Assembly: GCF_028728065.1 (NCBI RefSeq)
Contig: NZ_CP117811.1
Span: forward strand, 1,736,001-1,800,000
Direction of reading: 5' to 3'
Source: Lentisphaera profundi
GTDB lineage: Bacteria; Verrucomicrobiota; Lentisphaeria; Lentisphaerales; Lentisphaeraceae
Length of the DNA stretch: 64,000 bases
The notes below the pieces were generated by a model. The model saw nothing but the letters and a program-made list of their open reading frames with translations, was not told the origin of the DNA and did no database searches. Positions 1,130-52,332 of this stretch are shown one piece after another (the stretch's first letter is position 1; the number at the start of each line of letters is the position of its first letter). Position numbers and translations under genes: made by a program.

Positions 1130-3433
1130 ATGAGCACCTTAAAAGATAATTTAATTAAAATCGGTTTTAAGGAAGATGAAACCGATACGATTCTTGAGAA
1201 AATGCCTGATGCTGATCAGCAAAACTACGAAGAATTTTCCATGCCCGAGTTAGCACTCAAATCTGGCACACTTAGAAATCAGTATTTAAAAAAAGCACCT
1301 GTTCTAAAAAACAAGCTTAGTATCCCTAGTCCATCCAAGGATGATGATAATACAAATACGATGGTATTTAAACGCTCTGCACTCCCCGCGTCTGTAATAG
1401 ATACAGCTGCAGCTACAAGTAAAGACAAACCCACAATAGATATGAATGCTACGGGTATTGTCTCTCCTGGTTCCAAACTACAAAAAGCGGGTAGCTCCAT
1501 TAATTTACAAAAACCTGGTGGATCCTTACTCGATGCTAAAATTGCCCCAGCTAAACCTGTCTCCAACTTAAATAAACCCGGCTCAAATTTAAAAAAACCA
1601 AGTCCTGCCAGTAATTCTCCTAGTTCCAATCACATGGACGCCGATATGGGTGTCCCCACTATGGCTTTCAAAAGAACTACTTTACCTGGAGCCGCTCAAG
1701 AACTCGATCAAGCAACGAAAAGCTTATCAAAAACACCTGGAAGTAGTTTATCAAGCCTTAGTGGTGCAACTCCTGCTCCTAGCCCTGCTAAAAGTGATTT
1801 TAAACTCAAAGGGAGTTCGCTTAAAAAACCAGCTGATAACAAAGCGTCTGCTGACGACCCATTAGCTTCTATGGATCTAAATACAATGACACTCTCAAAA
1901 AGTGCCATACTGGGTAATGCCATCGATATTTCTTCAAGTGCTCCCTCTAGCAAGCCTGGCAGCTCTCTTCCAAGTGACGCTGTCATCGATAAAACTAATA
2001 CTGATGAGCCAAAAAAAACTGATATTCAACCCGACGTGGCACCCCCTAAAACAAAACCAAAATTAAGCTTAAAGGGTAAGATGGGGACTGTTACCCCACC
2101 TGGTTCAGGCTTAGAACTGCCCAAACCGGGTTCTTCATCAAAAGGACCTATCACCGCTCCTGGATCTGGGCTGAGCCTCAGTGCCGGCTTAGCTTCCAAA
2201 AGTGAAGAAGGCTCGAGTCCTGCACTACAGACTCCTGCTAGTGGTTTACAAGCACCTGGTGGGCTAAAAGCTCCTGGTGGGCTAAAAGCTCCTGGTGGGC
2301 TAAAAGCTCCTGGCGGGCTAAAAGCTCCTGGTGGGCTCACACCTCCACCCCCTCCCATCAATAGTAACACCCCTCCGCCTCCTCCTGGCGGACTCACACT
2401 CAAGTCTGGAACAGATTTACATGCACCGGGTGACCTCGCAGAAGGGCATGACAAAAAATTATCTCTTAGTTCAACTACTCAAGATCAAGCAGAGCCTCAT
2501 GAAGATGTAAGTGAAACGGTAACCACAAGCTTAAATAAACTCAAAAAGAAAAAAAGTACCTCTAAGGGTAAGAAACCACTGGTAGTAATGGCTCTTGTGG
2601 GTGTTTTACTTCTTGGTGGAATCGCTTACTTAGCGATGACTCTATTAGGTGATTCTGATGATGCTGTTGAGATCACTGATGCGTCTGTAAAAAAGGAAAC
2701 GGCTAAGACGCCAGTAAAAAAAGAAGTTGCTAAGTTCAAAGTGTTCGATATCACTGAATCAAAAGAATGGGCAATCACAAGTTCGACTCCCATCAAAATC
2801 GATTTACAGCAGGAAGTTAAGGATGCGTGGGCACTAGAATTCTGGTTAAGTATTCCCGAAAAAATCACAGTTGATAACACGAGAATCATCAGCTTCAAAT
2901 CAAAAGATGAAAAAGTGCTCTCCTTACGAATAAATGAGCGACACCTCTGTACTTTAAATAGTGGTGAACTGAATCAAAAAGCCTCTAAAGCTCTAAGATC
3001 AGGAAAAAGTCAGTATCACATTTCTCTAAGTTGTGCTGATAAAGAAGTTTCACTCTTTATTAACGGTAGCTATATAAATAAAATCCCTATGGACAAAGCT
3101 TTTGATCAATTACTTTTCGGTAGTGACAAAATCAAGCTCGTAATGGACGAACTGATCTTGAGTTCAGTCGCCCACTATTCTTCCGACGAAAGCTTTACCC
3201 CTAGTAGAACTTTCGAACGTTCTGAGGACACGATTGTTTACCTACCTGTTGAAGCACGTAAAGACACCAGTAAACTTGATATTTATTATGCACAAGAAAT
3301 GAAGTCTTTAGATATCGCTCCCGGTTCATGGGTCAATATAAAACAATCAATTCTCGACGTCCAAGCACTCTTAAGTGAGCTTGAGAACGAAGTTGATATC
3401 GACATAAATGAAGATCAAACTTCCGTACGTTAA
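1130..3433 (+). CDS. Single-pass membrane protein with disordered cytoplasmic half and LamG-like domain
   Basis: Not a named family. The 767 residues divide into a short charged N-terminal segment (1-60), a long Pro/Ser/Lys-rich low-complexity region (60-470), a lysine cluster (471-482), one membrane helix (about 483-507) and a C-terminal jelly-roll-like domain (about 535-735, with ALEFWLSIPEK and VSLFINGSYINKI) resembling LamG/concanavalin folds. By the positive-inside rule the disordered half faces the cytoplasm and LamG the periplasm. The disordered part holds five tandem APGGLK/T units (375-404) and three spaced copies of a TM-x-(F/L) motif (from 77, 177 and 252). The start follows the ribosome site aagaggaattc. 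It lies 15 bases after queE and ends at a terminator. Function unknown; recruitment or sensing at the membrane is a guess. Confidence 0.8.
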   Translation: MSTLKDNLIKIGFKEDETDTILEKMPDADQQNYEEFSMPELALKSGTLRNQYLKKAPVLKNKLSIPSPSKDDDNTNTMVFKRSALPASVIDTAAATSKDKPTIDMNATGIVSPGSKLQKAGSSINLQKPGGSLLDAKIAPAKPVSNLNKPGSNLKKPSPASNSPSSNHMDADMGVPTMAFKRTTLPGAAQELDQATKSLSKTPGSSLSSLSGATPAPSPAKSDFKLKGSSLKKPADNKASADDPLASMDLNTMTLSKSAILGNAIDISSSAPSSKPGSSLPSDAVIDKTNTDEPKKTDIQPDVAPPKTKPKLSLKGKMGTVTPPGSGLELPKPGSSSKGPITAPGSGLSLSAGLASKSEEGSSPALQTPASGLQAPGGLKAPGGLKAPGGLKAPGGLKAPGGLTPPPPPINSNTPPPPPGGLTLKSGTDLHAPGDLAEGHDKKLSLSSTTQDQAEPHEDVSETVTTSLNKLKKKKSTSKGKKPLVVMALVGVLLLGGIAYLAMTLLGDSDDAVEITDASVKKETAKTPVKKEVAKFKVFDITESKEWAITSSTPIKIDLQQEVKDAWALEFWLSIPEKITVDNTRIISFKSKDEKVLSLRINERHLCTLNSGELNQKASKALRSGKSQYHISLSCADKEVSLFINGSYINKIPMDKAFDQLLFGSDKIKLVMDELILSSVAHYSSDESFTPSRTFERSEDTIVYLPVEARKDTSKLDIYYAQEMKSLDIAPGSWVNIKQSILDVQALLSELENEVDIDINEDQTSVR
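2252..2341 (+). repeat. Five 18-bp tandem repeats coding APGGL(K/T)
   Basis: The sequence ggtgggctaaaagctcct recurs nearly perfectly with an 18-base period inside the membrane protein gene at 1130. Each unit codes APGGLK, the last APGGLT. The units are almost identical at the DNA level, including third positions, so recent slippage expansion is likely and copy number may vary between strains. Confidence 0.9.
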
Positions 3434-3514: not shown

Positions 3515-3669
3515 TTTACTCATATTTAAGAATCTAAATTGAATTTATAGCTCGCTAAAATAAGCTTTGATTATTTCATTCATAAATTCACATGCCCTGT
3601 AACATTCAAAAAATCATTGCGCTTATCTGTTTAGATTTTATTATTAAACCTAGATATGTGAGTATTACC

Positions 3670-5418
3670 ATGAAGTTATTCCTAATAAGCCTTCTCTTCC
3701 TACTGATCAGCCAAGCACCAGCGGCACCCAAAGCCATTAATCAAGAAGATCTAAATCAGCGTATGACTTGGTTTAATGATGCCAAATTTGGCATGTTTAT
3801 TCACTGGGGTGCTTACTCGGTCCTAAAGGGCTCATGGCAGGGTAAAGAAATGGAGTTTTATGCCGAATGGATTCAAGCTAAAGCTGATATTCCTAAAGAA
3901 GAGTACGAGCAAGTCGCCGCAGCTTTCAATCCAAAGCAGTTCGATGCCGACGCATGGGTAAAAGCTGCCTCAGACGCAGGGATGAAGTACTTAGTCATTA
4001 CTACCAAGCACCATGAGGGCTTTTGTCTTTGGGATAGCAAGTACACTACATTCGATATAAAAGATACCGCGGGAATTGATCGCGATTTACTTGGAGAACT
4101 AAGTCAATCCTGCAAAAAATACGGCCTCAAATTTGGAACTTATTATTCTATTATTGATTGGCATCATGATTCACAAGTCTCCGTCGAGGGCGCTAAAGGC
4201 CATTGGAATAAATGGGCTAAAATGAAAATGGTTTCACCCGTAAAAAAACGCAAATATATTCAATACATGAAAAACCAATTACAAGAATTGGTGGATAAAT
4301 ATGATACCCAAATTTTTTGGTTTGATGGTGACTGGAATGATTTTTGGACAATGGAAGATGGCCAAGACCTGTATCGTTTTCTTCGTAAAATTCAGCCCAC
4401 TGCCATCATCAATAATCGCGTCGCGAAAAGAAAAGAATTCAAATACGATTTTGGCACTCCCGAAAACCAAACTCCTGGGGAAAAATTAGATTATTTTTGG
4501 GAAGCTTGTTGGACAATTAATCACTCTTGGGGATACAAGGCTCACGACACAAAATGGAAAAGTGGCAAAGTGCTCATCCAAAAATTAATTGATATTAATT
4601 CAAAAGGTGGAAATCTCTTACTGAATGTAGGCCCTACTCCAGAAGGCACTTTTCCCGATGGCTGTATTGAGCGTTTAAATGAAATGGGAAAATGGACTCA
4701 AACTCATGCCAAAGTCTTATACAACACAGAATACGCTCCCGTAAAAGCAAGTGCTTGGGGCCGAGTACTCAAAAAGAATAATAAGCTCTTCCTCCATGTT
4801 TTTGATTGGCCAAATAATAATCAATTACAAATTAACGGCCTTGAAGGTACACTTACAAAAGCTTATGTATTTAATCAGCCACAAGTAGAACTAGAATACG
4901 AAAGCATATCACAGGGCTTTAATATCCACATACCAAGTAAAGCTTATGATGATAATTCTTCTGTAATCGTTTTAGAGTTTGCTGAAGATAGCCTAAGCTT
5001 CCCAAAAAATCCTGATCGAAAAGCGAATTCCAGTAATGATATTAGCCTTCCATTAAGCAAAGCGAGTATTACTGGTAGCAGCATTGTTTATGAAAAACGT
5101 AGCCAAAGCTTACGCTCTTTCAATTCTAATAAAGATAGCGTTAGCTGGAAGCAGGAAATTGTTATTCCCGGCAATTACGAAGTTATCCTAAACACCTCCC
5201 TTAAAGGCTCTGAAAGTACTTTTGAAATGAAATTTAATAATCAGACACTCAAAGGACAATCTAAAAACACCGATAAATGGGGACAGTTTGAAGATATCTC
5301 CCTAGGTAAAATCAATCTGGATCAAATTGGTGCTTATACTATTTCTCTAAGGAAAACTAGCACTAATCACGGTCCATTATTTAAATTAAAATCAATTCGC
5401 CTTCGTCCCATCGAATAG
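3670..5418 (+). CDS. Secreted alpha-L-fucosidase, GH29 family
   Basis: Removes terminal alpha-L-fucose from glycans such as fucoidan side chains by a retaining mechanism. The frame is open from 3592, but the ATG at 3670 is preferred because it begins a clear signal peptide (MKLFLISLLFLLISQAPAAP), giving 582 residues. GH29 motifs are KFGMFIHWGAYS (39-50), ITTKHHEGFCLWDS (110-123), FWFDGDW with the expected nucleophile Asp219, and GGNLLLNVGPTPEG. After the catalytic domain is a beta-rich C-terminal region. It leads an operon with two beta-helix proteins, with 12 bases to the next gene. A fucP-type transporter lies at 21411-22736. Substrate linkage and acid/base residue cannot be read from sequence. 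Confidence 0.92.
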   Translation: MKLFLISLLFLLISQAPAAPKAINQEDLNQRMTWFNDAKFGMFIHWGAYSVLKGSWQGKEMEFYAEWIQAKADIPKEEYEQVAAAFNPKQFDADAWVKAASDAGMKYLVITTKHHEGFCLWDSKYTTFDIKDTAGIDRDLLGELSQSCKKYGLKFGTYYSIIDWHHDSQVSVEGAKGHWNKWAKMKMVSPVKKRKYIQYMKNQLQELVDKYDTQIFWFDGDWNDFWTMEDGQDLYRFLRKIQPTAIINNRVAKRKEFKYDFGTPENQTPGEKLDYFWEACWTINHSWGYKAHDTKWKSGKVLIQKLIDINSKGGNLLLNVGPTPEGTFPDGCIERLNEMGKWTQTHAKVLYNTEYAPVKASAWGRVLKKNNKLFLHVFDWPNNNQLQINGLEGTLTKAYVFNQPQVELEYESISQGFNIHIPSKAYDDNSSVIVLEFAEDSLSFPKNPDRKANSSNDISLPLSKASITGSSIVYEKRSQSLRSFNSNKDSVSWKQEIVIPGNYEVILNTSLKGSESTFEMKFNNQTLKGQSKNTDKWGQFEDISLGKINLDQIGAYTISLRKTSTNHGPLFKLKSIRLRPIE

Positions 5419-5430
5419 GATATTAAAATT

Positions 5431-7869
5431 ATGATTAAATTTCTCCCCATACTTATATGCCTGATAAGTTCATGTCATCAAAACTATTCTACACATATTA
5501 AAACAAGCATAGATAGTCCTGTAAAAAAACATAGCGCAACCCTGAAACTTGATCAGGGTTCTACTTTTGTTCATATCTCCAATAGTAATGATGGCGATGG
5601 TTCTGTAGAAAAGCCTTATAACTCTATTGACACTGCAATTAAAAGCGCTCCTACCAATAGTACGATTTATTTACGAGCAGGAAGATATCGAGAAATTATC
5701 AAACTTAAAAATCTTGATAAAAAAATCAAAATATCTGCTTACCCTGGTGAACAAGTGATCATTGATGGCACTGAAAAACTGAGTCCCAAGTGGGAACATT
5801 ATAAGCAAGACATATACCGCAGTAAAATTAAGCGCGCTCTTTGGCAAGTCTTTGTAGATCATCAATACTCATATCTAGCTCGCTGGCCCAATGCTACTTT
5901 TGAAGACGGTAAAATCTGGCGAATGACGCAAGGCATGCGTAGCCTCAACGGTGGATATAAAAACCAAATTCCCACGGGAAAAAGCCGTCTAGGACTTGCC
6001 TACGACGATCACTTTAAATCACATGATAAAAATGGTTTTAATGAAGGTGACAGTCGTTATAACACGAGTTCTAAAACACAAAGTCTAGCCAGTTCTGGCC
6101 TCGATTTCACTGGTGCTATCGCAGTCTTGAATATAGGTCACTGGTTAACGTGGGCTCGCCCCGTAACAAAGCACGAAGCTGGTAGTGATCATTTTTCCTA
6201 TGACCCAAAAGGTATAAAACTGCGGGAGCTTCAAAGTCATACAGCTTATTATTTATATGGCTTAACTGCCCTAGATCAAGATAATGAATGGTGGTATGAC
6301 AAAGATAATAAATTCCTCTACTACAAGGCTGACAACATAAAAGAGCTTGCTAAGATAGAGTTCTCTACTCGGAAAAATGATTTCATGCTTGACTTAAGTA
6401 AAGTGAAAAATGTCAGTTTCGAAAACCTCCATTTTTTTGCAGCAGGCTACAATGTTCGTGATTGTGAAAATATCCGTTTTGAAAACTGTCGTTTCGACTA
6501 TCTAAGTGCCAACAAATATGTGCTCGGAAAATTTGACTGGTTTAAAGCTTTTAATGGCAACAGCAATAATACCATGTCGGCATTTTTTGGTGGTAAAGAC
6601 AATCAGATTATCAATTGTATTTATTCACGCTCTAATGCTCCTATCACTTTTAGAAGTGATAATACTCTAGTTCAAAATTGTCGCTTTGAAGATATTGAAT
6701 GGGACGTAAACACTAATGGCGGTTCCGGGTCAGTCATGCTTGGAAAAGCTAGTACCATTACTCACAGCACATTATCAAAAACGGGTAATTCAGAAGGAAT
6801 ACGCGCCATAGAAGATTCTGTTACTATCCAGTTTAACCGTGTCTTTGATGCCGGTAATCTACAGCACGATGGTTCTGGCATCAATGTCGGCACCAGAGTT
6901 CAAAAAGGAGCTACTGTCACACATAACTGGGTACATGATTGCAATCGCCAAGGTGTTCGTTTTGATTACCACGGCGAGAACATCTTCCAGAAAGATGGTA
7001 GTGTTTATGGAGATGGCCTCTATGCCTTTAACGTCATTTGGAATACTCAACCTAGCCAAGTAAAAGGTGATCGTCACCTCATTTTCAATAATACGATTAT
7101 CAACTGTAATTATTTTCCCGAACCTACAAATGAGCCTTTTAATTTCAGTGTGCAAGGTTTCAAAGCCATGCATGGTATCATGGGCAATAAAAACTCGATT
7201 ATTCGCAATAACCTTGCGAACATCAGTCATAGAAGCTGGGATCTACGTATGATTGAAAGAAGAGATCAAAATTATAAAAATGGCAGCCGCTATTTCAAAG
7301 ATTTAAATTATAATGTGCTACCCGGTCAACATGATCATAATATGAAAGAAGCTGGTGCGGCTTATAAATATTTGCGGGATCCGCAAAACTTAGATTTCCG
7401 CCCCCAATTAAATAGCCCCTTAATTTCTGCAGGCAAAAACATCGAACAAAAAGAAAATCCCAATGCCTACACCTCCGTCCAAGGCTTTAAAGAATTAGGT
7501 CCGAAAATTGATATTGGCGCCTATCAGAGTCAAGCTAAGCACTACTGGATCCCAGGTCATAAGGCTTTGCGGCCGAGTCAAGCAATCCCCCCTAACCGAG
7601 CTCAACTGAGTAGCACAAAAGTTGACCTTATGTTTCTGGGAACTTACAAAGCCCAAAGTCACAAAATCTATTTCGGCACTAAGCCTTCGAAACTTAAACT
7701 TATGGCTGAACTCAAAGACAGTAATATTTACTCTTGCCCACAATTAAAAAAGGGTGAGCAATATTTTTGGCGTGTCGATACCCTCGTCGATGATGAACTC
7801 ATTACCGGAGAAGTATGGAGTTTTACTATTGATGCAAAGACTGCAGCTAAGCATTTGACCTCTAAATAA
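5431..7869 (+). CDS. Lipoprotein with right-handed parallel beta-helix and C-terminal FN3-like domain
   Basis: Probably an extracytoplasmic polysaccharide-active or polysaccharide-binding protein. The N-terminus MIKFLPILICLISSC fits a lipoprotein signal with lipidation at Cys15. Residues about 45-110 resemble the entry strand of DUF1565-type beta-helices (GDGSVEKPYNSIDTAI, YLRAGRYRE, AYPGEQVIIDGT). Repeated N-x-(I/F)-x-(N/C) ladders fill residues 320-600, as expected for parallel beta-helix coils. The last 90 residues (HKIYFGTKP, YFWRVDTL, VWSFTID) resemble the fibronectin-III-like modules on planctomycete and lentisphaerote secreted enzymes. Position after the GH29 fucosidase suggests action on the same glycan. 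Hydrolase (GH141-like), lyase and binding roles all remain possible; no catalytic residue is identified. Confidence 0.75.
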   Translation: MIKFLPILICLISSCHQNYSTHIKTSIDSPVKKHSATLKLDQGSTFVHISNSNDGDGSVEKPYNSIDTAIKSAPTNSTIYLRAGRYREIIKLKNLDKKIKISAYPGEQVIIDGTEKLSPKWEHYKQDIYRSKIKRALWQVFVDHQYSYLARWPNATFEDGKIWRMTQGMRSLNGGYKNQIPTGKSRLGLAYDDHFKSHDKNGFNEGDSRYNTSSKTQSLASSGLDFTGAIAVLNIGHWLTWARPVTKHEAGSDHFSYDPKGIKLRELQSHTAYYLYGLTALDQDNEWWYDKDNKFLYYKADNIKELAKIEFSTRKNDFMLDLSKVKNVSFENLHFFAAGYNVRDCENIRFENCRFDYLSANKYVLGKFDWFKAFNGNSNNTMSAFFGGKDNQIINCIYSRSNAPITFRSDNTLVQNCRFEDIEWDVNTNGGSGSVMLGKASTITHSTLSKTGNSEGIRAIEDSVTIQFNRVFDAGNLQHDGSGINVGTRVQKGATVTHNWVHDCNRQGVRFDYHGENIFQKDGSVYGDGLYAFNVIWNTQPSQVKGDRHLIFNNTIINCNYFPEPTNEPFNFSVQGFKAMHGIMGNKNSIIRNNLANISHRSWDLRMIERRDQNYKNGSRYFKDLNYNVLPGQHDHNMKEAGAAYKYLRDPQNLDFRPQLNSPLISAGKNIEQKENPNAYTSVQGFKELGPKIDIGAYQSQAKHYWIPGHKALRPSQAIPPNRAQLSSTKVDLMFLGTYKAQSHKIYFGTKPSKLKLMAELKDSNIYSCPQLKKGEQYFWRVDTLVDDELITGEVWSFTIDAKTAAKHLTSK

Positions 7870-7890
7870 CATTTCCTCATAGGTATTATC

Positions 7891-10053
7891 ATGAATAAAA
7901 TTTTCTATCTCCTCATTTTCTGTACTTGCTTGATACAAGCTAAAGAAATCCATGCATATCCAAATAATATCAAGTCAAATTTACGTGTAGCCCATCAACA
8001 ATGGCAAAAACTACGACAAGATAAGTATTCAGGTACTATTGAAATTATTCTTCATCCCGGAATTCATCGATTAAGTGAAACACTGATTTTTAATGAAATT
8101 GGAGCTGAATCCAAAACTATAATACGTTCAAAAAATAGCGCGCCTGCAATTATTAGTGGTTCACGAAAAATTGAGGATTGGCAGCAGACAAAACTGAAAA
8201 ACGGCAAGATTTGGTCCGCATCAGTTCCATGGGCGAAGGATACACATTTTTTCCATGTCTTATTTAAAAATGACAAAATGCTCAAACGCTCAAGTTCTGA
8301 AATGATTGAACTCAGCAATGATGCACCGAGTCGTTTTTATTGCAATACTCTTCAAAGTCGTTTAGAATTTAATAATCATCCAGAAATCACCGCACTTAAG
8401 AATTTTGATGACGTCGAATTATTTGGTCAACCAACTCGAAAATGGTTAGTCAATTACTTGCCTATTGAATCAATCAAAAAGGATAAAACTACACTGAAAA
8501 TACCTGCTACCTACATCATGAGTGGCGAATGGAAGATCGAGAATTCTTTAGAATATCTAGATACTCCTGGTGAATGGTGCCTCAATAATGGTACTCTCTA
8601 TTATTGGCCTGAAGCTACTAAACCAAAGGATATCTTTGCCCCTTACCTAGATGAACTCATCCGCGTGGCCGGTCAAAGTGATGCTTCTCTAAAAGGAGAG
8701 AAGGAAAAACCGGCTTCCAATTTCATCTTCCAAAACCTTACTTTCACCCATGCTGATAGACAAAGTTGGAGCAAAGATGACATCGGCCTTCAACACGACT
8801 GGAATATGTGGGACAAAGCCAATGGCTTATTACGTTTTCGCAGTGCAAAAAATTGCGAAGTTCGCAAATGTAATTTTATTAATTCAGGAAGCGATGGCAT
8901 CCGTTTAGACCTTTTTTGTCAAAATATAAAAATCCACGATAATTACTTTAGTAAATTGGGTGGCACTGGCATACTGCTTGCAGGTTATGGGCCAGGCAAA
9001 AAAGACGTCAATCACCACAATGAAATAGTAAATAATACACTGACTGATATTGGCACCCTCTTCTGGCATTCGCCAGGCATCTTTATTTGGCAAAGTGGTC
9101 ATAACCTCATTGCCAAAAACCACATTTATGATCAGGGCTATAGCGGTATTATTGTCGCCGGTGTGAGGAGACGTTTTTTTGAACAAAAATTCCCTAAAGA
9201 TCAAAGAACAGATAAGAATCCCTTTAAGTTTTGGCAATTCCCAAAAGGCACACGTGAACATCTGCCCTCGATTCGTTGGGCGGAAATCAAAAATATTAAA
9301 GACCCTTTAGACTGGAAGCTTTATGAACCCTACATGCATGCTCGCCATAATGTGATTGAGTTTAACGAAGTACACGACTGTATGAAAAGGCTTCACGATG
9401 GTAATGGCATCTACCTTTCCGCTCATGGCAATGAAAACTTAGTTCGTTATAACCTGGTCTATAATCACCCCAAAGGATCTATGATCCGGACTGATGATGA
9501 TTCTCATCAGTCACTCTTAAGCTTTAATGTCTTATTAGGTACTACTGCTAAAGATGGACTTTGTATGAAAGGTCAAAACACATTTGAAAATAATTTCTTT
9601 TTTAATACGCGCTTCACTACAGGTATGGCAGGAAATAAAGCTGAATACACTTCAAACTTTAGAAAAAACATCTTCTACTCCACAGGAGATATTAATCATT
9701 TCCACTATAAAACTTTTATGATGGGTCCTATGCTCAACGATAATATTTATTATTCTCCAAATACTGAGAATGCACGCAAATTCCTTCGTGACGTTCAAAC
9801 TCTAGGACAAGATAGTCGCAGCCTAGTTGCTGACCCGCAATTTACTGAACTTGATACTGGAGACCTCTCTTTCCTTCCTGATTCACCTGCTCATAAAATG
9901 GGCATCAGAGGATTGAACAAAGAACAATTCCTCAACATTGGTACGAGTCAGGACCCATGGCTCAAACGTAAACAATCTCAACTTCCGATTAAGTGGAATG
10001 ATATGCAAGGGGATTATTATTACTATATCAATAAGATAAAACGCATTCACTGA
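7891..10053 (+). CDS. Secreted right-handed parallel beta-helix protein, GH141-like
   Basis: 720 residues with a signal peptide (MNKIFYLLIFCTCLIQA, cleavage probably before KE). The early segment (IEIILHPGIHRLSETLIF, then APAIISGSRKIEDWQ) resembles proteins assigned to GH141, a beta-helix family with alpha-L-fucosidase and xylanase members; this is recalled resemblance, not a search result. Helical ladders rich in N-x-(I/F)-x-(N/D) span about 270-600 (CEVRKCNFINSGSDGIRLD, NLIAKNHIYDQGYSGIIVAG). It is the third gene of the fucosidase operon, 21 bases after the previous stop, and a terminator follows. It shares its fold but only distant sequence with the preceding gene. A pectate-lyase-like activity cannot be excluded. 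Confidence 0.75.
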   Translation: MNKIFYLLIFCTCLIQAKEIHAYPNNIKSNLRVAHQQWQKLRQDKYSGTIEIILHPGIHRLSETLIFNEIGAESKTIIRSKNSAPAIISGSRKIEDWQQTKLKNGKIWSASVPWAKDTHFFHVLFKNDKMLKRSSSEMIELSNDAPSRFYCNTLQSRLEFNNHPEITALKNFDDVELFGQPTRKWLVNYLPIESIKKDKTTLKIPATYIMSGEWKIENSLEYLDTPGEWCLNNGTLYYWPEATKPKDIFAPYLDELIRVAGQSDASLKGEKEKPASNFIFQNLTFTHADRQSWSKDDIGLQHDWNMWDKANGLLRFRSAKNCEVRKCNFINSGSDGIRLDLFCQNIKIHDNYFSKLGGTGILLAGYGPGKKDVNHHNEIVNNTLTDIGTLFWHSPGIFIWQSGHNLIAKNHIYDQGYSGIIVAGVRRRFFEQKFPKDQRTDKNPFKFWQFPKGTREHLPSIRWAEIKNIKDPLDWKLYEPYMHARHNVIEFNEVHDCMKRLHDGNGIYLSAHGNENLVRYNLVYNHPKGSMIRTDDDSHQSLLSFNVLLGTTAKDGLCMKGQNTFENNFFFNTRFTTGMAGNKAEYTSNFRKNIFYSTGDINHFHYKTFMMGPMLNDNIYYSPNTENARKFLRDVQTLGQDSRSLVADPQFTELDTGDLSFLPDSPAHKMGIRGLNKEQFLNIGTSQDPWLKRKQSQLPIKWNDMQGDYYYYINKIKRIH

Positions 10054-11121: not shown

Positions 11122-11931
11122 CTACTTTCCACAGTCCCACAATGTATTCCGTGTGTCTGTAGATGACCATGGATCTGAACCTGAGCCCTGGTAAGTCGCT
11201 GGGTAATAAATGTAACTCACATGACCGTCGACAAATAAATAATTACTTTTCCAAAGATCATGACTCCAATAAGACTTATCTCCCTGCTTGGCATGAATAT
11301 TTTCAACTGCCATTACTGCTCTGGATTGATGGCCTGTACTATTATTATCATATGGATTCTCTGCCATTGCAATGCTTTCACTCGCTTGATTTACATCTGT
11401 GTACGAACGTGAATAAACCTTATCCGCATCTGTCTCCCAAGGGTTACTCGTCATCCCACGTCCGGCCCATGAAGTAAATGTATAAAGTTGATTGAGTGAA
11501 TACGAACGAGATATTTTATCTAACGCACTGACTTCTCCCCTCGCATCAGAGGGACAACGATAGAGCTGACTGCCACTAGCCTGCTCACTATCCACATCAA
11601 AACCCCAAATTGATTTGTCTACATCACTTAAGTTACGGCTATCGTAGTCACTTAGCTTATCGTCCCACGACCATGCATAATCAACTTGAGTGGAAATGTT
11701 ATGTGAGACGGGATAGTAGCCCTCATTATCCTCTAAATACATAAAAATAACAGTGGCGATTTGTTTTTGATTATTCGTGCATTGAGTTCGCTTTGCAGAC
11801 GCTCTTGCTTTTGCGAGCACGGGTAAAAGAAATGATGATAGGATACCCACTATGGCAATCACCACCAATAACTCAATAAGTGAAAAGGAGGCTGTTTTTT
11901 GCGGTCTTCTATTCAAAATGATTTTAGTCAT
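11122..11931 (-). CDS. Prepilin-like secreted protein with H-x-DG C-terminal motif
   Basis: 269 residues. The N-terminus carries a type IV prepilin/type II pseudopilin signal: basic leader, then F-SLIELLVVIAIVGILSSF with the Glu at +5, expected to be cut by prepilin peptidase and methylated. The C-terminus contains SNYLFVDGHVSYIY with an upstream His, the H-x9-DG type motif (here the spacing reads as ten). Such proteins form very large families in Lentisphaera and planctomycetes, mostly of unknown role; surface display or pseudopilus assembly is the usual inference. It is divergent from the kinase at 12145, with a 26-bp palindrome between. Two Cys residues (TQCTNN, YRCPSD) may form a disulfide. 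Confidence 0.85.
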   Translation of the reverse strand: MTKIILNRRPQKTASFSLIELLVVIAIVGILSSFLLPVLAKARASAKRTQCTNNQKQIATVIFMYLEDNEGYYPVSHNISTQVDYAWSWDDKLSDYDSRNLSDVDKSIWGFDVDSEQASGSQLYRCPSDARGEVSALDKISRSYSLNQLYTFTSWAGRGMTSNPWETDADKVYSRSYTDVNQASESIAMAENPYDNNSTGHQSRAVMAVENIHAKQGDKSYWSHDLWKSNYLFVDGHVSYIYYPATYQGSGSDPWSSTDTRNTLWDCGK

Positions 11932-12144: not shown

Positions 12145-14202
12145 ATGAACAAGAATGAGATTACCAACAATAATTTTTCGAAAATTTTTGATGAAGCCAA
12201 TTCTCTTCTTGTTGATGAAGCCGAAACTCCCATTATTGATTCAATAAAAAATGAAGCTGATCGCTATTCACAACTACAAGAACATGCAGTCGGTGGTCAC
12301 AAAATTATCTACAAATGTCACGATGAATACACCGATCGTTTTGTTGCCCTCGCCTTATTAAAAGACTCTTGTGATCATAAAAAAGAAGAACTTTTCCTCC
12401 GTGAAGGAAGAATCAATTCTCTCCTACAGCACCCGAATATCATCCCTGTTTACGACATGGGTTTTAGAAACAACTCGCCTTTTTTTACGATGAAGTTCAT
12501 CCAGGGGCAAACTCTGGGAAGCCTCATTAAGAATTTAGCCATGGCTAATCAAGAAACGTGTCAGCGAAATGAACTCATTGATATCTTCTTAAAAGTATGT
12601 GATGCCATTGCCTACTGTCACTCAAATGGCATTGCCCACCTAGATTTAAAACCTGACAACATCTGTATTGATGAATATGGTGAAGTCTATGTCTGTGACT
12701 GGGGGCTTGCCATAGTACTAGATGATAGTGCCTACCGCGACGATGCCTTTTCAGATTTAGATAAATACTCACTCAATTCAATTCATCAGGAAAACCAAAC
12801 TATAGATGGTTACCTTAAAGGTACGCCAGGCTATATGGCTCCCGAACAAACTCCCTTGATGAAGGAAAATAAAGGAAGGCACAGTGATATATTTTCCTTA
12901 GGAGCCATGCTCTACACTATCTTAACATTAAAGAAACCATTCCCAGCCGATTCTATAGAGCTTATTTTACAAAAAACTGTGCAAGGTGATTTCACATACC
13001 CCTCCACTTTAATTAAAAATTTACCGGCTCAACTAGAACTCATTTGCCTCAAAGCTTTACAGGTTCCACTTGATCAACGTTACGCGTCTGTGGAGGATTT
13101 TAAAAATGATATATTGGCTTTTCGCAATGGCTTTGCCATCTCAGCAGAAAAAAATTCCAACCTAAAAATCGTTAGTCTTTTAATCAAACGTAACAAAGCT
13201 TTGGTCATTAGTTTATTTTTAGCTTTGGTCATTATCAGCACATCAACTTTTCTCTTCACTGTGAACTTAAAAAAATCTAAAAACACCGCGATTGCCCTCG
13301 CCGAAAAGTTCCGCCAAAAGACTCAAGAAAGTGATCTTCGCGGTTCCTTACTTGCTAAGAAAATTTTTGCTGATGCCAAGATACAATTCCAAAATGATCA
13401 ATTTTATCAAGCCTTAGAACTTGTCAATTATTCATTGGAATTAAATCCGAATAATAGTCTTGCCAAGGAATTAAAAGGACTGCTTTGTTTTATTACGGAA
13501 GATTACCCAACTGCCTTAAGTTCCTTATCTCCTTTAAGTAAAAAAGATCATTTCAGTCAGTTCATCTTAGACTATTTAAGTGAAAATCAGGCGCCAAAAT
13601 CTATCGAAGACTTTTATAAGCTGACGACTAAAGTCAATGAGGAATTCGGTATTTCGAATACTTTGAGTTCTGATTTATTACACCATAAAATCTACTCAAA
13701 GCTAACTTATCAAGAAAGACTCCAGCTTGCATCACTCTTGCTTGCTCTATCCAACGCAGACAATGAAATATCACTTAACTATGATGCTCCCACAAAATAC
13801 CTGAGCCTAGCTAATAACCCCACACTAGTCCAGCCTTATATGTTACAAAATTTTCCTGCTCAAAAAGCCGATTTTTCGAATACATCGATCGTGAATTTTA
13901 TCACTTTCCGCTCGATGCCTTTACTGAGCTTAAATGTCAGCTCAACTCAAATAGCGGATCTAGAGAGCCTCTCGAATACATCACTTCGTGAACTCTATAT
14001 TGCCCATACAAAAATCCGGGATTTGAGTCCTTTGCGAAATTCTACCTTACAAGTTTTGGATATTCGTGGTTTAGAGATACTGGATTACCGAAGCTTATTT
14101 TCCATGCAACAACTTAAAACACTAATCACTTCGCCTGGTCAAATTGACCTTAAACTCAAAAAGAAACTCAACTGGCGCATAAAAATAATCGAAAAAGATT
14201 AA
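12145..14202 (+). CDS. Membrane Ser/Thr protein kinase with TPR-like and leucine-rich C-terminal part
   Basis: 685 residues. The kinase domain spans about 45-330: VALALLKD with the ATP-binding Lys73, HLDLKPDN with catalytic Asp167, DWG at 185-187 in place of DFG, and GTPGYMAPEQ in the activation/P+1 region. The Gly-rich loop is reduced to GGHK, and Arg of HRD is Leu. One membrane helix lies at about 352-373. The outer part has a TPR-like stretch (about 390-470) and leucine-rich repeats near the end (LRELYIAHTKIRDLSPL, LQVLDIRG). Its stop overlaps by three bases the stop of the convergent ECF sigma gene. The kinase at 49764-51719 has the same order of domains. Substrate unknown; the sigma factor or an anti-sigma function is a natural guess. 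Confidence 0.88.
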   Translation: MNKNEITNNNFSKIFDEANSLLVDEAETPIIDSIKNEADRYSQLQEHAVGGHKIIYKCHDEYTDRFVALALLKDSCDHKKEELFLREGRINSLLQHPNIIPVYDMGFRNNSPFFTMKFIQGQTLGSLIKNLAMANQETCQRNELIDIFLKVCDAIAYCHSNGIAHLDLKPDNICIDEYGEVYVCDWGLAIVLDDSAYRDDAFSDLDKYSLNSIHQENQTIDGYLKGTPGYMAPEQTPLMKENKGRHSDIFSLGAMLYTILTLKKPFPADSIELILQKTVQGDFTYPSTLIKNLPAQLELICLKALQVPLDQRYASVEDFKNDILAFRNGFAISAEKNSNLKIVSLLIKRNKALVISLFLALVIISTSTFLFTVNLKKSKNTAIALAEKFRQKTQESDLRGSLLAKKIFADAKIQFQNDQFYQALELVNYSLELNPNNSLAKELKGLLCFITEDYPTALSSLSPLSKKDHFSQFILDYLSENQAPKSIEDFYKLTTKVNEEFGISNTLSSDLLHHKIYSKLTYQERLQLASLLLALSNADNEISLNYDAPTKYLSLANNPTLVQPYMLQNFPAQKADFSNTSIVNFITFRSMPLLSLNVSSTQIADLESLSNTSLRELYIAHTKIRDLSPLRNSTLQVLDIRGLEILDYRSLFSMQQLKTLITSPGQIDLKLKKKLNWRIKIIEKD

Positions 14203-14813
14203 TGACAATCTAATTCCTTGTTTAAGCGGGTGATTTCTTTGATCAAAGCATTTCGCGCTCGTTGTTTGTACACACGAACCGAGCTAGAGGCTATCCCTAT
14301 ACGGCTTTCGATTTCTTCATCAGCAATATCCTGCATTGCCAGTTCAAAAACAGACCTTATTTTATCTGACAATTCATTTTTAATATTCTCATAAGCTTTT
14401 TCGGCAATAAAGACTTTCCATTCTTTTTCAGCAATTTTTTCAATTTCTGGCTCAGTCACACGACTCATACTTTGAAAATCTTCTTCATATTGCACTTCTT
14501 TCTTGGCATTATTACCTGCTTTTGATTTGAGGTAATCTTTCACAATATTACAGGTCACTAAACTTAACCATGTACGAAAACGACATTTATTGGGCCTGTA
14601 TTCAAATTTGGGAAGATCTTTCCAAAGCTTTAATAAAACATTTTGCAGCAGGTCCTCATTAAGCTCATTTTTTAAATTAAAATTGCGTATAATGACATAA
14701 ATATAATTTTTATAGGTCTCAACAAAATCTTCCCAACAATGCTCATCTTCGTGATTTGTTTGAATTCGTTGAATTAAAGTCAACCTAGTTGAGTAATCTT
14801 TCTTCAATGACAC
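14199..14813 (-). CDS. ECF-type RNA polymerase sigma factor
   Basis: 204 residues of the sigma-70 family with regions 2 and 4 only. Region 2 is about residues 20-95 (DLLQNVLLKLWKDLPKF, RFRTWLSLVTCNIVKDYL). Region 4 is about 140-195 and ends in a helix-turn-helix (DEEIESRIGIASSSVRVYKQ). It is convergent with the kinase at 12145 and touches it end to end. It resembles the sigma factor at 51724-52332, including the RIQTNHEDEHCWEDFVETY opening. No anti-sigma gene is adjacent; in planctomycete-type systems the kinase itself is thought to take that signalling role. Its own promoter must lie in 14814-14922. Confidence 0.9.
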   Translation of the reverse strand: MSLKKDYSTRLTLIQRIQTNHEDEHCWEDFVETYKNYIYVIIRNFNLKNELNEDLLQNVLLKLWKDLPKFEYRPNKCRFRTWLSLVTCNIVKDYLKSKAGNNAKKEVQYEEDFQSMSRVTEPEIEKIAEKEWKVFIAEKAYENIKNELSDKIRSVFELAMQDIADEEIESRIGIASSSVRVYKQRARNALIKEITRLNKELDCH

Positions 14814-48172: not shown

Positions 48173-49663
48173 TTATCGCCTATATGTCAGCTTACTTTTC
48201 TGTGCAAAATATTCTAAACCCAAAGCACTTTCATGGCCAGCTAAACCAAAAAGCAAGGGGCTGAAATCAATCCCTTGAATTGCCCTGGCTCGCCATTCTG
48301 TTTTTCTATACGAAGCTCTCCAAGGAATCCTAAGCCCGTTAAGCTCATAGATTAGATCTTTGTTATTCAATAATATATCAAAATCAAGTTCTGCCTGTGT
48401 AGCGAAGGGAATAAAGCCCCCTACACTAGGCATACAAAGAACCATATCTGAATTTCTTTCTGTTGAGTCGACCCCATACCCCCTAATTGAAGCTCCTGCA
48501 CTACTGCCCCATAACCCTTTCTTACTTAATTGATCATACCACCACATTCGGTCGACCTTCATCGCCTGTAAACTCTCTTTAATAAACACGGGATCTTTAA
48601 CTCTATAAGGACTCAAATACAAAGGAAACTGAAAAGTAAATAAAGGCAAAAAATGCCCCGGACTATCAGTAATCACACCATGATCTTTATAAAACTTTTT
48701 ACGCCAAGCTTGATTCATATCAGTTTCTTTTTCATTCAATGAAAAAGAAACGTAATCTGCTAATAACAAATATTCATTAAACAATCGAGTTTTTGCTCCA
48801 CCCACTCCATGCTCATCTTGCGTAAGGTAATAATGATGATCATCAAATCGACATAACTCCCAATTCACAGAATCCCATAGCTCCTGAGTCAAAGACTGAA
48901 TTTTTTTATTATCGGGGAATTGATTGCGGCAAAAGGTCGCTCCTGCTACTAACAAGGCTGTATCAATTGTACTAAATTCTGACTTCCCCCAGCGCCCTCC
49001 ATCCCTTGCATCAATAAAATGATAAAAAAGACCAGACTTATTCCTCTTTAAATGTATCCCCGAGGTCTTAGCTAGGCACGTTTCTAAAGTTTCAATTATC
49101 TTAGGCTCTACTTCATTATCAAATGACAATTCAGCTGATATGGCTAATGCCACCAACCCTATCCCTGTACTAGCTGTGGAAACCCGGTAATCTTCTTTTT
49201 GTGGGATAGTTATCAAATCTAAGTATAGGCCTTTTTCTGCCCTTAATAAGCCATAAAAAGCACAAGCATCTTTAAGGTATGACTGATACTTACTATCTTG
49301 ATATTTGGGAGGGCGGACATGCTTCATTTTCTCATTGGTGACAATTTCTAGTTCTTTTACTTCGCCATTATCCTTGCTCATATTATTAAAGCTCATGACA
49401 AGAGCTATACAGATAGCCACACAAACACTCAAAAATATAAATACAGGGAACTGTTTATTTTTTAGCGCTCGACTCTTGTGAGTTTTCCGAGGACTGTTAA
49501 AAGACTCTTTAACTCCTCCTTCAGTACAAGTCAGCTTATCGGGTACTGCATAAAGAACCGCATTGAACTTCTTATCACAATTCCCACATTGAATGCGCAT
49601 TCCACTAATATCTCTTTGGTGCTCGAGAAGGCTTCCACAAAACTCACATTTAAATCTATACAT
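48173..49663 (-). CDS. Membrane protein with zinc ribbon and glycoamylase-like domain
   Basis: 496 residues from the ATG at 49663; a TTG three codons earlier is less likely. An N-terminal zinc ribbon (CEFC ... CGNC, within the first 35 residues) faces the cytoplasm, followed by one membrane helix (about 68-88, FPVFIFLSVCVAICIALVM). The outer part (about 120-490) matches the glycoamylase-like family PF10091 by pattern: SGLFYHFIDARDGG, STIDTALLVAGA, PLFTFQFPLY, MPSVGGFIPFA and LFGLAGHESALGLEYF. Relatives in this fold cut beta-1,2-glucans (GH144). It lies 100 bases after the kinase stop on the same strand, so it may belong to the sigma/kinase unit. Confidence 0.72.
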   Translation of the reverse strand: MYRFKCEFCGSLLEHQRDISGMRIQCGNCDKKFNAVLYAVPDKLTCTEGGVKESFNSPRKTHKSRALKNKQFPVFIFLSVCVAICIALVMSFNNMSKDNGEVKELEIVTNEKMKHVRPPKYQDSKYQSYLKDACAFYGLLRAEKGLYLDLITIPQKEDYRVSTASTGIGLVALAISAELSFDNEVEPKIIETLETCLAKTSGIHLKRNKSGLFYHFIDARDGGRWGKSEFSTIDTALLVAGATFCRNQFPDNKKIQSLTQELWDSVNWELCRFDDHHYYLTQDEHGVGGAKTRLFNEYLLLADYVSFSLNEKETDMNQAWRKKFYKDHGVITDSPGHFLPLFTFQFPLYLSPYRVKDPVFIKESLQAMKVDRMWWYDQLSKKGLWGSSAGASIRGYGVDSTERNSDMVLCMPSVGGFIPFATQAELDFDILLNNKDLIYELNGLRIPWRASYRKTEWRARAIQGIDFSPLLFGLAGHESALGLEYFAQKSKLTYRR

Positions 49664-49763
49664 ATATCTCAAAGCTCATTGTCTATTAATCCCAAACTCA
49701 TCACTAATCTTCACCCTACATTACGTCACTCAATGACTTATTATGACAAGCCCTCCTGGCTCA

Positions 49764-51719
49764 TTACTCCCGTATCAAAGAAATATGGGCAGGTATTTTT
49801 CCCTTAAAGTCAATAAAATCACTTTTTCCGATCACCAGCTTTTTGAGGTAACGCAATTTTAAAACTTCATTGAGATTTCTAATATTTGTATTTTTCATTC
49901 GTAACTCTGTGATCGGCATTATTTTAAGATCTAGAGCAATGGATATCCCTGAGTTCGATATATCCATAATTTTAATCGGTAAATTCCTTAAACCTGAGAG
50001 TGAATAAAGTTTTGGATTGTCACTCAAATTCACGTCTAAAAAATCATTTTTTAGATATTTAATCGACATTTTTAAATTGGGGGCTGCATGTCGATTAGTT
50101 AATTTAAGTAAAGCACTTGCGATAGCAACTCGATCTTCGAGTACTTTGGTATGTTGCTCTGCGTAACCCGCCAATAAATAAGAAAGCTGTACATGATTCA
50201 ACTCTTTCATTAACTCATTTAATTTATTTATCTGGAGTAACTCAGAATCATCCTTTTGCAGTGCATAATATTGTGATAATTGATATATTTTAACACTAGC
50301 TCTAAGCTTACTTGGGACATTTTTCATTGCTTCTAAAACTTGATTAAACTCCTGCCTAGAAAAATGAACTTTTGACTTCACTAACCAACCTTCCACTAAA
50401 TCTGGATCACGTAACACAGTTCGATTAGCCAATTCCAGGGCTTTATCGAAATCGTACGCGTATTGTTGGTTAAACTCCTCTTCCGTTAAGGTTGCTAAAC
50501 GCGGTGCTGCTTCTTTACCAATGATTCTTGTTTGTTCTTTTTCATTTTTATACAGCTCTAATGCATGCAAGGCTTCTTGCTCATTTTTCAATGCTCGTTT
50601 TTCGCTCACCATAATTTGAACGACACCGTAAATTGCAAAAAACATGAAAACAATTAATATCGCGGTAATATCTCTGTGACGCTTCATCAACAACAATAGT
50701 GACGTAGCGAAGCCCGCCTTTTCTGCATCAGTAGCAAAACCATTAAGCCATTTACTTATATCTTTCAAAAAATCATCCACAGATTGATAGCGATCTTTTT
50801 GCTTCAATGATAAAGCTTTCATTGCGACCGCTTCCAGGCTAATAGAGACGTAGTCATCCTTAAACTTTGACGGTTTTATCACTTCGCCTCTCAAAGTTTT
50901 TTCTAAAGACTCCATCGTGTCCTTACACTCAATGGGTTTAAGCCCACAAAGCATATAATAAAGAATCCCACCTAAAGCATAGACATCCGTTGTTTCATTT
51001 TTATCACCAAATATTGGATCAATTTGCTCAGGGGCTAAATAACCAGGAGATCCCTTAACAACACCATTCAGGGTTGCATCATTATACACTTCGGGATCTA
51101 GTAAACTCAAAGAGGGACTTTCATTATTTTCATCTAAAATTTTTGCTATGCCCCAATCAAAGATCATAACTTCACCATAGGCACCTACCCCAATATTAGC
51201 AGGTTTTAAATCTAAATGAACAATTCCATTGGCATGCGCATAGGATATAGCCTGACAAACTTTGATCATGATTTGTACTATATCATGATCTTTAACGCCC
51301 TCTTTAAGGGACTCAGATTCATACCACTCATCCATAGGTAGACCCTGGAAAAGTTTCATAGTAAAAAAGGGCTGTCCTTCATCATCTAGACCCATATCAT
51401 AAACAGGCATGATATTCGGGTGCTGAAGCGATGCAGTTAAACGAGCCTCTTTAATAAATCGATCTATATTATCAACATTGTCGGCATCGAGTAATTTAGC
51501 CACGGCCACATCACGCAAGGTGAAACGATCGAGACAGCGACTGACTTTTTTCATTCCCCCATGATCTATGGCTGTATCATTTTGGTAGCGTTCGTGGGAA
51601 TTACTTATTTCATTATAAAAGAGCGCATCCTCTGCTTCTTTAGCTTCAAATGCTTCGTGAAAATGTGAATTTAAAGATTTGAAATTATGAAAAAAATCTT
51701 GATTGTTTTTTTCTTCCAT
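49764..51719 (-). CDS. Membrane Ser/Thr protein kinase with leucine-rich C-terminal part (second copy)
   Basis: 651 residues, clearly paralogous to the kinase at 12145. Kinase domain about 50-335: HGGMKKV in place of a full Gly loop, VAVAKLLD with Lys75, HLDLKPAN with Asp170, DWG at 188-190, and GSPGYLAPEQ. One membrane helix at about 350-372 (ITAILIVFMFFAIYGVVQIMV). The outer part has TPR-like segments and ends in leucine-rich repeats (LYSLSGLRNLPIKIMDIS, ITELRMKNTNIRNLNEV). It starts four bases after the stop of the ECF sigma gene on the same strand, so both are made together. Confidence 0.9.
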   Translation of the reverse strand: MEEKNNQDFFHNFKSLNSHFHEAFEAKEAEDALFYNEISNSHERYQNDTAIDHGGMKKVSRCLDRFTLRDVAVAKLLDADNVDNIDRFIKEARLTASLQHPNIMPVYDMGLDDEGQPFFTMKLFQGLPMDEWYESESLKEGVKDHDIVQIMIKVCQAISYAHANGIVHLDLKPANIGVGAYGEVMIFDWGIAKILDENNESPSLSLLDPEVYNDATLNGVVKGSPGYLAPEQIDPIFGDKNETTDVYALGGILYYMLCGLKPIECKDTMESLEKTLRGEVIKPSKFKDDYVSISLEAVAMKALSLKQKDRYQSVDDFLKDISKWLNGFATDAEKAGFATSLLLLMKRHRDITAILIVFMFFAIYGVVQIMVSEKRALKNEQEALHALELYKNEKEQTRIIGKEAAPRLATLTEEEFNQQYAYDFDKALELANRTVLRDPDLVEGWLVKSKVHFSRQEFNQVLEAMKNVPSKLRASVKIYQLSQYYALQKDDSELLQINKLNELMKELNHVQLSYLLAGYAEQHTKVLEDRVAIASALLKLTNRHAAPNLKMSIKYLKNDFLDVNLSDNPKLYSLSGLRNLPIKIMDISNSGISIALDLKIMPITELRMKNTNIRNLNEVLKLRYLKKLVIGKSDFIDFKGKIPAHISLIRE

Positions 51720-51723
51720 ATTT

Positions 51724-52332
51724 TTAACTCAGCTCGTAATAAAGCCGTCTAATTTCTTCGTGAAACTTTTTCGTCACCCGTTTATTATAAACATAAACCG
51801 TATTTAAAGGCATATCGAGTTCTTCGCTCACTTCCTTTGCTACCCTACCCTGGTTAATCTCTGTAAAACAGGTCATTACTTTATCAGAAAATTTATCTTT
51901 AATATTATTCAAAGCCAAATTACTAATGTAATTCTCCCATTCCTTTTCCGCATATTTTTCAATATCTGGCTGATCGGTACGCTCGGGGTCCCATATATCT
52001 AGATCGCTAGCTTTTTCTTTTCTATCTTGACGCCTTTTATAGGAGCGAAAAAAGTCTTTCACTGTATTTCCCGTCACCATACAGAGCCAACCACGAAAAC
52101 GCTTTTTCTTATCATATTCAAATTCAGGTAACTTATCCCAAACTTTCAACATAACTTTTTGTACGAGCTCTTCCGAATCATGGTGATTTGCCCCCATACC
52201 GCGACAGATTATATAAACATACTGACGGTAATAGTAGACAAAATCTTCCCACGATTCTTCATCATGCCGATTACGAATACGCTGAAGCAAGGTCTCTCTA
52301 GTGCTACACTGGTCTTTATTATTTTCACTCAT
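51724..52332 (-). CDS. ECF-type RNA polymerase sigma factor (second copy)
   Basis: 202 residues with sigma regions 2 (EELVQKVMLKVWDKLPEF, FRGWLCMVTGNTVKDFF) and 4 (VAKEVSELDM-like helix-turn-helix ending YVYNKRVTKKF). It opens with LLQRIRNRHDEESWEDFVYY, matching the sigma factor at 14199. It is the first gene of a unit sigma-kinase-(glycoamylase-like). Partner promoter sequences cannot be read here. Confidence 0.9.
   Translation of the reverse strand: MSENNKDQCSTRETLLQRIRNRHDEESWEDFVYYYRQYVYIICRGMGANHHDSEELVQKVMLKVWDKLPEFEYDKKKRFRGWLCMVTGNTVKDFFRSYKRRQDRKEKASDLDIWDPERTDQPDIEKYAEKEWENYISNLALNNIKDKFSDKVMTCFTEINQGRVAKEVSEELDMPLNTVYVYNKRVTKKFHEEIRRLYYELS

Follow-up and report, generated by a model that had tools for sequence, protein, structure and literature searches.

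The locus studied here, at which a gene for a membrane Ser/Thr kinase and a gene for an ECF sigma factor converge tail to tail, raises the question of whether the two proteins work together and, if they do, how such a kinase might control its sigma factor. The window, by which we mean the whole stretch of 64,000 nucleotides analysed (positions 1,736,001 to 1,800,000 of contig NZ_CP117811.1 of Lentisphaera profundi, whose genome comprises 5.46 Mb in two contigs), contains this pair and a second one. ECF sigma factors with a neighbouring Ser/Thr kinase are already known as a kind of system; new here are the WNK-like active site of the kinases, the kept acidic motif and N-terminal Ser/Thr signature of the sigma factors, and the scale on which the pairs occur.

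Organisation of the two pairs in the window

The genes of the two pairs are as follows:

12145-14202 (+): membrane Ser/Thr kinase of pair 1, with a WNK-like active site (685 aa ORF; PF00069, 126 bits; AlphaFold pLDDT 85)
14199-14813 (-): ECF sigma factor of pair 1, convergent with the kinase (204 aa ORF, GTG start; TIGR02937, 60.3 bits)
49764-51719 (-): kinase of pair 2, with the WNK-like pattern GGMK/VAVA/HLD (651 aa ORF; Pkinase, 108 bits)
51724-52332 (-): ECF sigma factor of pair 2, in tandem with and upstream of its own kinase (202 aa ORF; TIGR02937, 64.9 bits)

The open reading frames bore out the arrangement given in the preliminary description, which had pair 1 tail to tail with overlapping stops (the overlap is of four bases) and its paralogues head to tail, the sigma gene of pair 2 being followed after a 4-base gap by the kinase gene on the same strand. 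Both sigma factors scored above the TIGR02937 cut-off of 42.9 bits (NCBIfam) and are thus ECF sigma factors by this model; Sigma70_r2 was above the Pfam cut-off in both, and region 4 was found below the cut-off only. Both kinases scored above the cut-off of Pfam Pkinase (PF00069), the Hanks-type family model.

Four parts were distinguished in the kinase of pair 1:

12256-13146 (+): kinase domain, residues ~38-334 (profile alignment to PknB; best Foldseek matches are PknB structures)
13201-13257 (+): transmembrane segment, residues ~353-371 (hydropathy peak 2.49, preceding basic patch; model helix 351-416)
13402-13752 (+): TPR-like helical hairpins, residues ~420-536 (AlphaFold helices; weak TPR-type Pfam match)
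13777-14193 (+): leucine-rich-repeat (LRR) solenoid, residues ~545-683 (AlphaFold; Z ~15 with internalin, Roco and SDS22 repeats)

Hydropathy and AlphaFold models confirmed the order that had been read for both kinases, namely kinase, membrane helix, TPR-like part and leucine-rich end, the model of the pair 1 kinase showing a kinase domain, one helix that forms membrane segment and stalk, hairpins of TPR type and a solenoid of LRRs. PknB structures matched this model at a target-normalised TM-score of up to 0.88 (Foldseek). Because Foldseek with the full-length model returned matches to kinases only, the outer part was modelled separately (residues 396-685, pLDDT 94, pTM 0.87), and its LRR part aligned with the internalin, Roco and SDS22 repeats in VIA-align; these structure matches were generic and indicated no ligand. 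A single transmembrane segment was present in 37/37 kinases of our alignment, in most of them with a basic patch ahead of it (hydropathy). Since the kinase needs ATP, the LRR part is predicted to lie outside the membrane, so that these proteins would be single-pass kinases whose WNK-like kinase domain lies in the cytoplasm and whose TPR/LRR domain lies beyond the cytoplasmic membrane. The outer part differs from the PASTA domains of PknB-type kinases. Planctomycetota have receptor kinases that are likewise single-pass proteins with periplasmic repeat domains (TPR, WD40), but as described they have neither a link to a neighbouring ECF gene nor a loss of the VAIK lysine (PMC11032199).

Copy number and co-inheritance of kinase and sigma genes

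The original description, which gave the pair one paralogous module at a distance of 37 kb, is true but falls far short, there being about 60 such pairs in the genome. Genome-wide searches found ~60 sigma paralogues and >70 kinase homologues, and a reading confined to two modules was dropped. A kinase of the same family lay within 1 kb of 48 of the 60 sigma genes, well beyond what coincidence would give. Counted by hits, 33 of these 48 pairs were tandem (sigma, then kinase), 11 convergent and 4 divergent, where the tandem figure includes the two halves of one broken sigma gene and one of the 48 hits is a decayed copy. Several more sigma genes had an unpaired kinase 4-13 kb off with other genes between them; by distance profile this kinase ranked 1-4 of 28 for 6 of 7 sigma factors, a weak ranking, as some divergent kinases correlate with many sigma factors. 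Two decayed modules (G000, C2:734917-737607 and C2:1238097-1240723), with a stop-containing or split sigma gene and broken kinase frames, show that pairs turn over.

Among 44 adjacent pairs, distances between sigma factors mirrored those between whole kinases (Mantel r 0.77), and also those between kinase domains (r 0.72) and between C-terminal parts (r 0.68), none of 5000 permutations being as high in any of the three comparisons; exact nearest neighbours of sigma and kinase agreed in 16 of the 44 pairs. The mismatch of trees that would have spoken against the pair was therefore not seen. These mirrored distances show co-inheritance and not interaction, because joint duplication of two genes gives the same result. 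In a maximum-likelihood tree built quickly from the 99 sigma-adjacent kinases we counted at least 15 changes of orientation, and adjacency has therefore outlived repeated rearrangement, even into convergent layouts, where a common operon is impossible.

A survey of other genomes, as had been suggested at the outset, showed that the pairing recurs in Lentisphaeria and Kiritimatiellae and in a small number of other Verrucomicrobiota. It was found in Lentisphaera marina and oceanic Lentisphaerales, in Pontiella and further Kiritimatiellae, in an Akkermansiaceae MAG and in class-level relatives, and tandem, convergent and divergent pairs all occurred across many genomes. L. marina had 55 such sigma factors, an ALOHA Lentisphaerales MAG had 65 and Pontiella sulfatireligans had 27; in most of the remaining genomes that carry them there were one or a few. 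The proposal that the two proteins work together, first drawn from a comparison of two modules, has to be restated for some 60 pairs but is supported by co-inheritance, recurrent adjacency and the changes of orientation, and we consider it highly probable that the kinase and sigma genes form a functional pair.

The kinase active site and the N-terminal motif of the sigma factors

Alignment of the pair 1 kinase drew attention to these active-site positions:

12301-12303 (+): codon of Lys53, within GGHK of the glycine-rich loop, proposed to stand in for the catalytic lysine (invariant in 37 kinases)
12352-12354 (+): codon of Ala70 at the expected VAIK lysine (VALA; aligned to the PknB VAVK lysine, invariant in 37 kinases)
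12637-12645 (+): HLD motif, residues 165-167, with the HRD Arg changed to Leu (kinase alignments)
12697-12705 (+): residues 185-187, DWG where DFG is usual (kinase alignments)

In the alignment to PknB, Lys53 lies 17 residues before Ala70. Lys53, Glu87, Asp167 (catalytic), Asn172 and Asp185 (metal-binding) were invariant in 37/37 aligned kinases. When all 99 sigma-adjacent kinases were compared, 86 lacked the VAIK lysine, and so fell outside the beta-3 lysine definition of Hanks-type kinases, and had a lysine in the glycine-rich loop; the exact K/A/E/HLD/DWG pattern was present in 80 of these 86 WNK-like kinases, and the rest of the 99 consisted of 12 canonical kinases and one left unassigned. 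The HRD arginine was changed in most of the 99. On their tree the lysine pattern required only two changes, against a mean of 12.4 after shuffling. The canonical kinases include those of this genome's two most divergent pairs and those of relatives from other Lentisphaeria families; the WNK-like form is thus not needed for pairing, because some relatives of these sigma factors keep a canonical kinase. Of the 58 WNK-like kinases in this genome, 54 had a sigma gene within 15 kb, compared with 8 of 16 canonical ones (Fisher p 0.0003), and one WNK-like kinase scored as far from a sigma gene actually has one that the gene caller missed (C1:433641). Kinases of this type without such a sigma factor within 15 kb, which might have argued against the pair, are therefore few.

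Wnk kinases are described in the microbial kinome paper as the sole functional ePK family without K72, and their K55 as required for catalysis (PMC1821047). The pair 1 kinase has the same pattern as the eukaryotic WNK kinases, Lys53 being the loop lysine (position 55) and Ala70 replacing the beta-3 lysine (position 72). WNK1 keeps the HRD arginine, which is mostly Leu here. PknB-type kinases share the fold and are the closest solved relatives, from which the kinases described here differ by the replacement of the VAIK lysine, mostly by Ala, by their glycine-rich loop lysine and by the HLD and DWG motifs. The likeness to eukaryotic WNK is probably convergent, since no WNK was among the best 60 structures listed and the closest were bacterial PknB kinases. 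We propose that Lys53 stands in for the lost VAIK lysine, and the invariance of Asp167, Asn172, Asp185 and Glu87 favours an active enzyme.

The same substitutions may instead mean that the domain is a pseudokinase, which would hold and release the sigma factor by binding, in an anti-sigma-like or scaffold role tuned by the outer TPR/LRR part, without phosphotransfer. The missing VAIK lysine and altered HRD arginine agree with this reading, and a 2025 review, as far as its relevant part goes, treats loss of the beta-3 lysine, a standard criterion, as pointing to a pseudokinase and mentions WNK solely as an example from eukaryotes (PMC12599244). The one-to-one pairs and the mirroring of distances would fit binding equally well. 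However, dead kinases rarely keep all five of the residues found invariant here, and in sister pairs the same sigma motif goes with a canonical kinase, so that we regard a pseudokinase as unlikely. If the kinases are indeed active, they would represent a second origin, in bacteria, of the WNK solution to loss of the catalytic lysine, and pseudokinase filters based on the beta-3 lysine would throw out such kinases. We found no account of sigma-paired WNK-like kinases of this sort in the open-licence literature. A kinase pattern of other bacteria, GEGGKKRVYLAHD...VAFALIK, may be WNK-like too; a search of plasmids gave no close match to it.

Three loci of other Lentisphaeria (L198, L199 and L200) have sigma factors close to these beside canonical VAxK/HRD/DFG kinases and make a natural before/after set for the lysine shift. 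At the loci L071, L078 and L080 the kinases are 1224-1253 aa long, with a long outer part, and canonical where typed, and those of L071 and L078 are encoded directly upstream of the sigma gene, the reverse of the usual order.

On the side of the sigma factor, one short feature was common to the partners of these kinases:

14778-14789 (-): codons of Thr9-Thr12 of the pair 1 sigma factor, motif T-R-x-[T/S]-L-L, candidate phospho-acceptor (conservation in kinase-adjacent sigma factors)

Thr9 was present in 99/99 kinase-adjacent sigma factors and Ser or Thr occupied position 12 in 99/99, the motif being kept whether the partner kinase was WNK-like or canonical. It was missing from most of 36 ECF sigma factors without such a kinase, a comparison set that is mostly from Bacteroidota and distant from the kinase-adjacent sigma factors. 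An exchange limited to Ser and Thr at position 12 is the pattern expected of a phospho-acceptor, although a helix cap could look similar. We therefore propose, from conservation, that each module is a one-to-one cognate signalling pair in which the kinase phosphorylates its partner sigma factor, most likely at Ser/Thr12 (or Thr9). Both the kinase activity and the phosphorylation of this motif are plausible but unproven. If this proposal is right, the ~60 matched pairs in one genome should allow partner specificity to be read from covariation.

Kinase and sigma factor might also belong to one pathway in which the kinase phosphorylates another protein, for example a regulator encoded nearby or a factor for surface assembly, while control of the sigma factor comes mainly from transcription of its own gene. 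That the sigma factor is phosphorylated directly is, after all, a proposal, and 15 of the 48 pairs (by hits) are convergent or divergent, so that kinase and sigma factor need not share a transcript. Nevertheless, the sigma gene is constant beside the kinase gene and no third gene was constant beside the pairs in our neighbour tally, and position 12 is restricted to Ser or Thr in every partner sigma factor; this alternative seems to us quite unlikely.

Direct phosphorylation of an ECF sigma factor by the neighbouring kinase has been demonstrated in ECF43, where, according to the accounts cited, the phosphothreonine substitutes for an absent acidic charge in region 2.2 (PMC8999054, PMC13147305). 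The ECF43 systems (EcfP/PknT of Vibrio parahaemolyticus and EcfK/PknS of Xanthomonas citri) resemble the present ones in that the ECF gene adjoins the gene of a membrane-bound Ser/Thr kinase whose outer domain varies. They differ in lacking the acidic DAED of region 2.2, whose charge the phospho-Thr provides, whereas the partner sigma factors found here keep acidic residues (Asp or Glu at position 54 in 99/99, and mostly acidic residues at 51 and 53). EcfK also uses linker sites, while here the invariant Ser/Thr positions lie in the N-terminal motif, and the present kinases are set apart by their WNK-like site and their ~60 copies. The charge-replacement mechanism of ECF43 was rejected for these pairs because the acidic residues of region 2.2 are retained. 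Since the sigma factor already has the acidic region 2.2 for binding RNA polymerase, phosphorylation would most likely alter its conformation, release or stability and not supply a missing charge. Taken as a whole, an active bacterial WNK-type kinase that evolved independently, serves dozens of sensors per genome and in each case phosphorylates the TRx[T/S]LL motif of its own sigma factor, unlike ECF43, appears to us a serious possibility with slightly less than an even chance of being right.

The retained acidic region has a further consequence, for the unmodified sigma factor should then bind polymerase, unlike that of ECF43, and phosphorylation could serve to turn it off, the kinase keeping the sigma factor inactive until a signal stops the kinase. 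As both characterised ECF-kinase cases are activations, we think this decidedly unlikely. A 2022 review, in the part that deals with kinase-linked ECF groups, states that groups other than ECF43 keep the acidic motif, may work by different mechanisms and have yet to be characterised in this respect (PMC8999054); direct phosphorylation of the N-terminal motif, as preferred here, would offer a testable answer to the question that it left open. The planctomycete groups ECF59, ECF61, ECF62 and ECF217, predicted to be kinase-regulated, share with the present sigma factors a kinase neighbour, a DAED-like motif and membership of the PVC superphylum, but as described there, and we liken them by description only, they have neither a WNK-like kinase nor such a copy number (PMC8999054).

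Genes around the pairs

Two features near pair 1 bear on what the sigma factor might control:

3592-10053 (+): possible target row, alpha-L-fucosidase and two beta-helix-type proteins (PF01120, 315 bits; PF13229 in the third)
11122-11931 (-): pseudopilin-like DUF1559 protein beside pair 1 (PF07596 and PF07963; a type enriched near sigma genes)

The genes of the fucosidase/beta-helix row are 12 and 21 bases apart, and the row is proposed as a target by position only. Throughout the genome, a pseudopilin-like gene lay within 10 kb of 40 of the 60 sigma genes, compared with 18.6 expected (0/2000 circular shifts), and such genes made up 21/114 immediate neighbours against 4/289 in controls. This DUF1559 family is very large, occurring at ~127 places in the genome, and also clusters with sulfatases. 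Among the matches listed (PF00884 hits, at least 150 or so in the genome), a sulfatase lay within 5 kb of 21 of the 60 sigma genes compared with 11.3 expected (2/2000 circular shifts), a modest enrichment, and no excess was detected within 3 kb. Since the pseudopilin-like genes were enriched and sulfatases within 3 kb were not, a strictly sulfatase-centred reading was weakened. Cytochromes of planctomycete type, GDSL lipases and fucosidases also appeared in the Pfam tally of neighbours, and all of these are associations only. When the regions ahead of sigma, kinase, sulfatase and pseudopilin genes were compared, shared bipartite promoter words showed no excess over shuffles, and no motif was common to the five apparent L. 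marina orthologues compared; because no shared promoter motif was found, the link from sigma factor to neighbouring genes rests on position.

We suggest that the kinase would be activated by a signal, probably one connected with polysaccharide outside the cell or with surface structures, and that the active sigma factor would then switch on catabolic genes close by (those for pseudopilin-like proteins, sulfatases and glycoside hydrolases), with one island for each pair. That the module is a cognate switch of periplasmic sensor, WNK-like kinase and sigma factor, in which the kinase phosphorylates its own sigma factor and nearby polysaccharide genes are switched on, is the reading to which we incline, if only by a little over an even chance.

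Pair 2 adjoins an uncharacterised protein and housekeeping genes, with no obvious catabolic island. The protein beside it (48173-49672, -) has an N-terminal zinc-ribbon-like region and no Pfam or NCBIfam family match above the cut-off. Elsewhere in the window, positions 1130-3433 (+) encode a protein of 767 aa that contains GGLKAP repeats in tandem and matched no Pfam family, and positions 59155-61227 (-) encode the transcription terminator Rho with a long N-terminal low-complexity stretch, in which repeated NPNQNS and Asn-rich runs give a prion-like composition.
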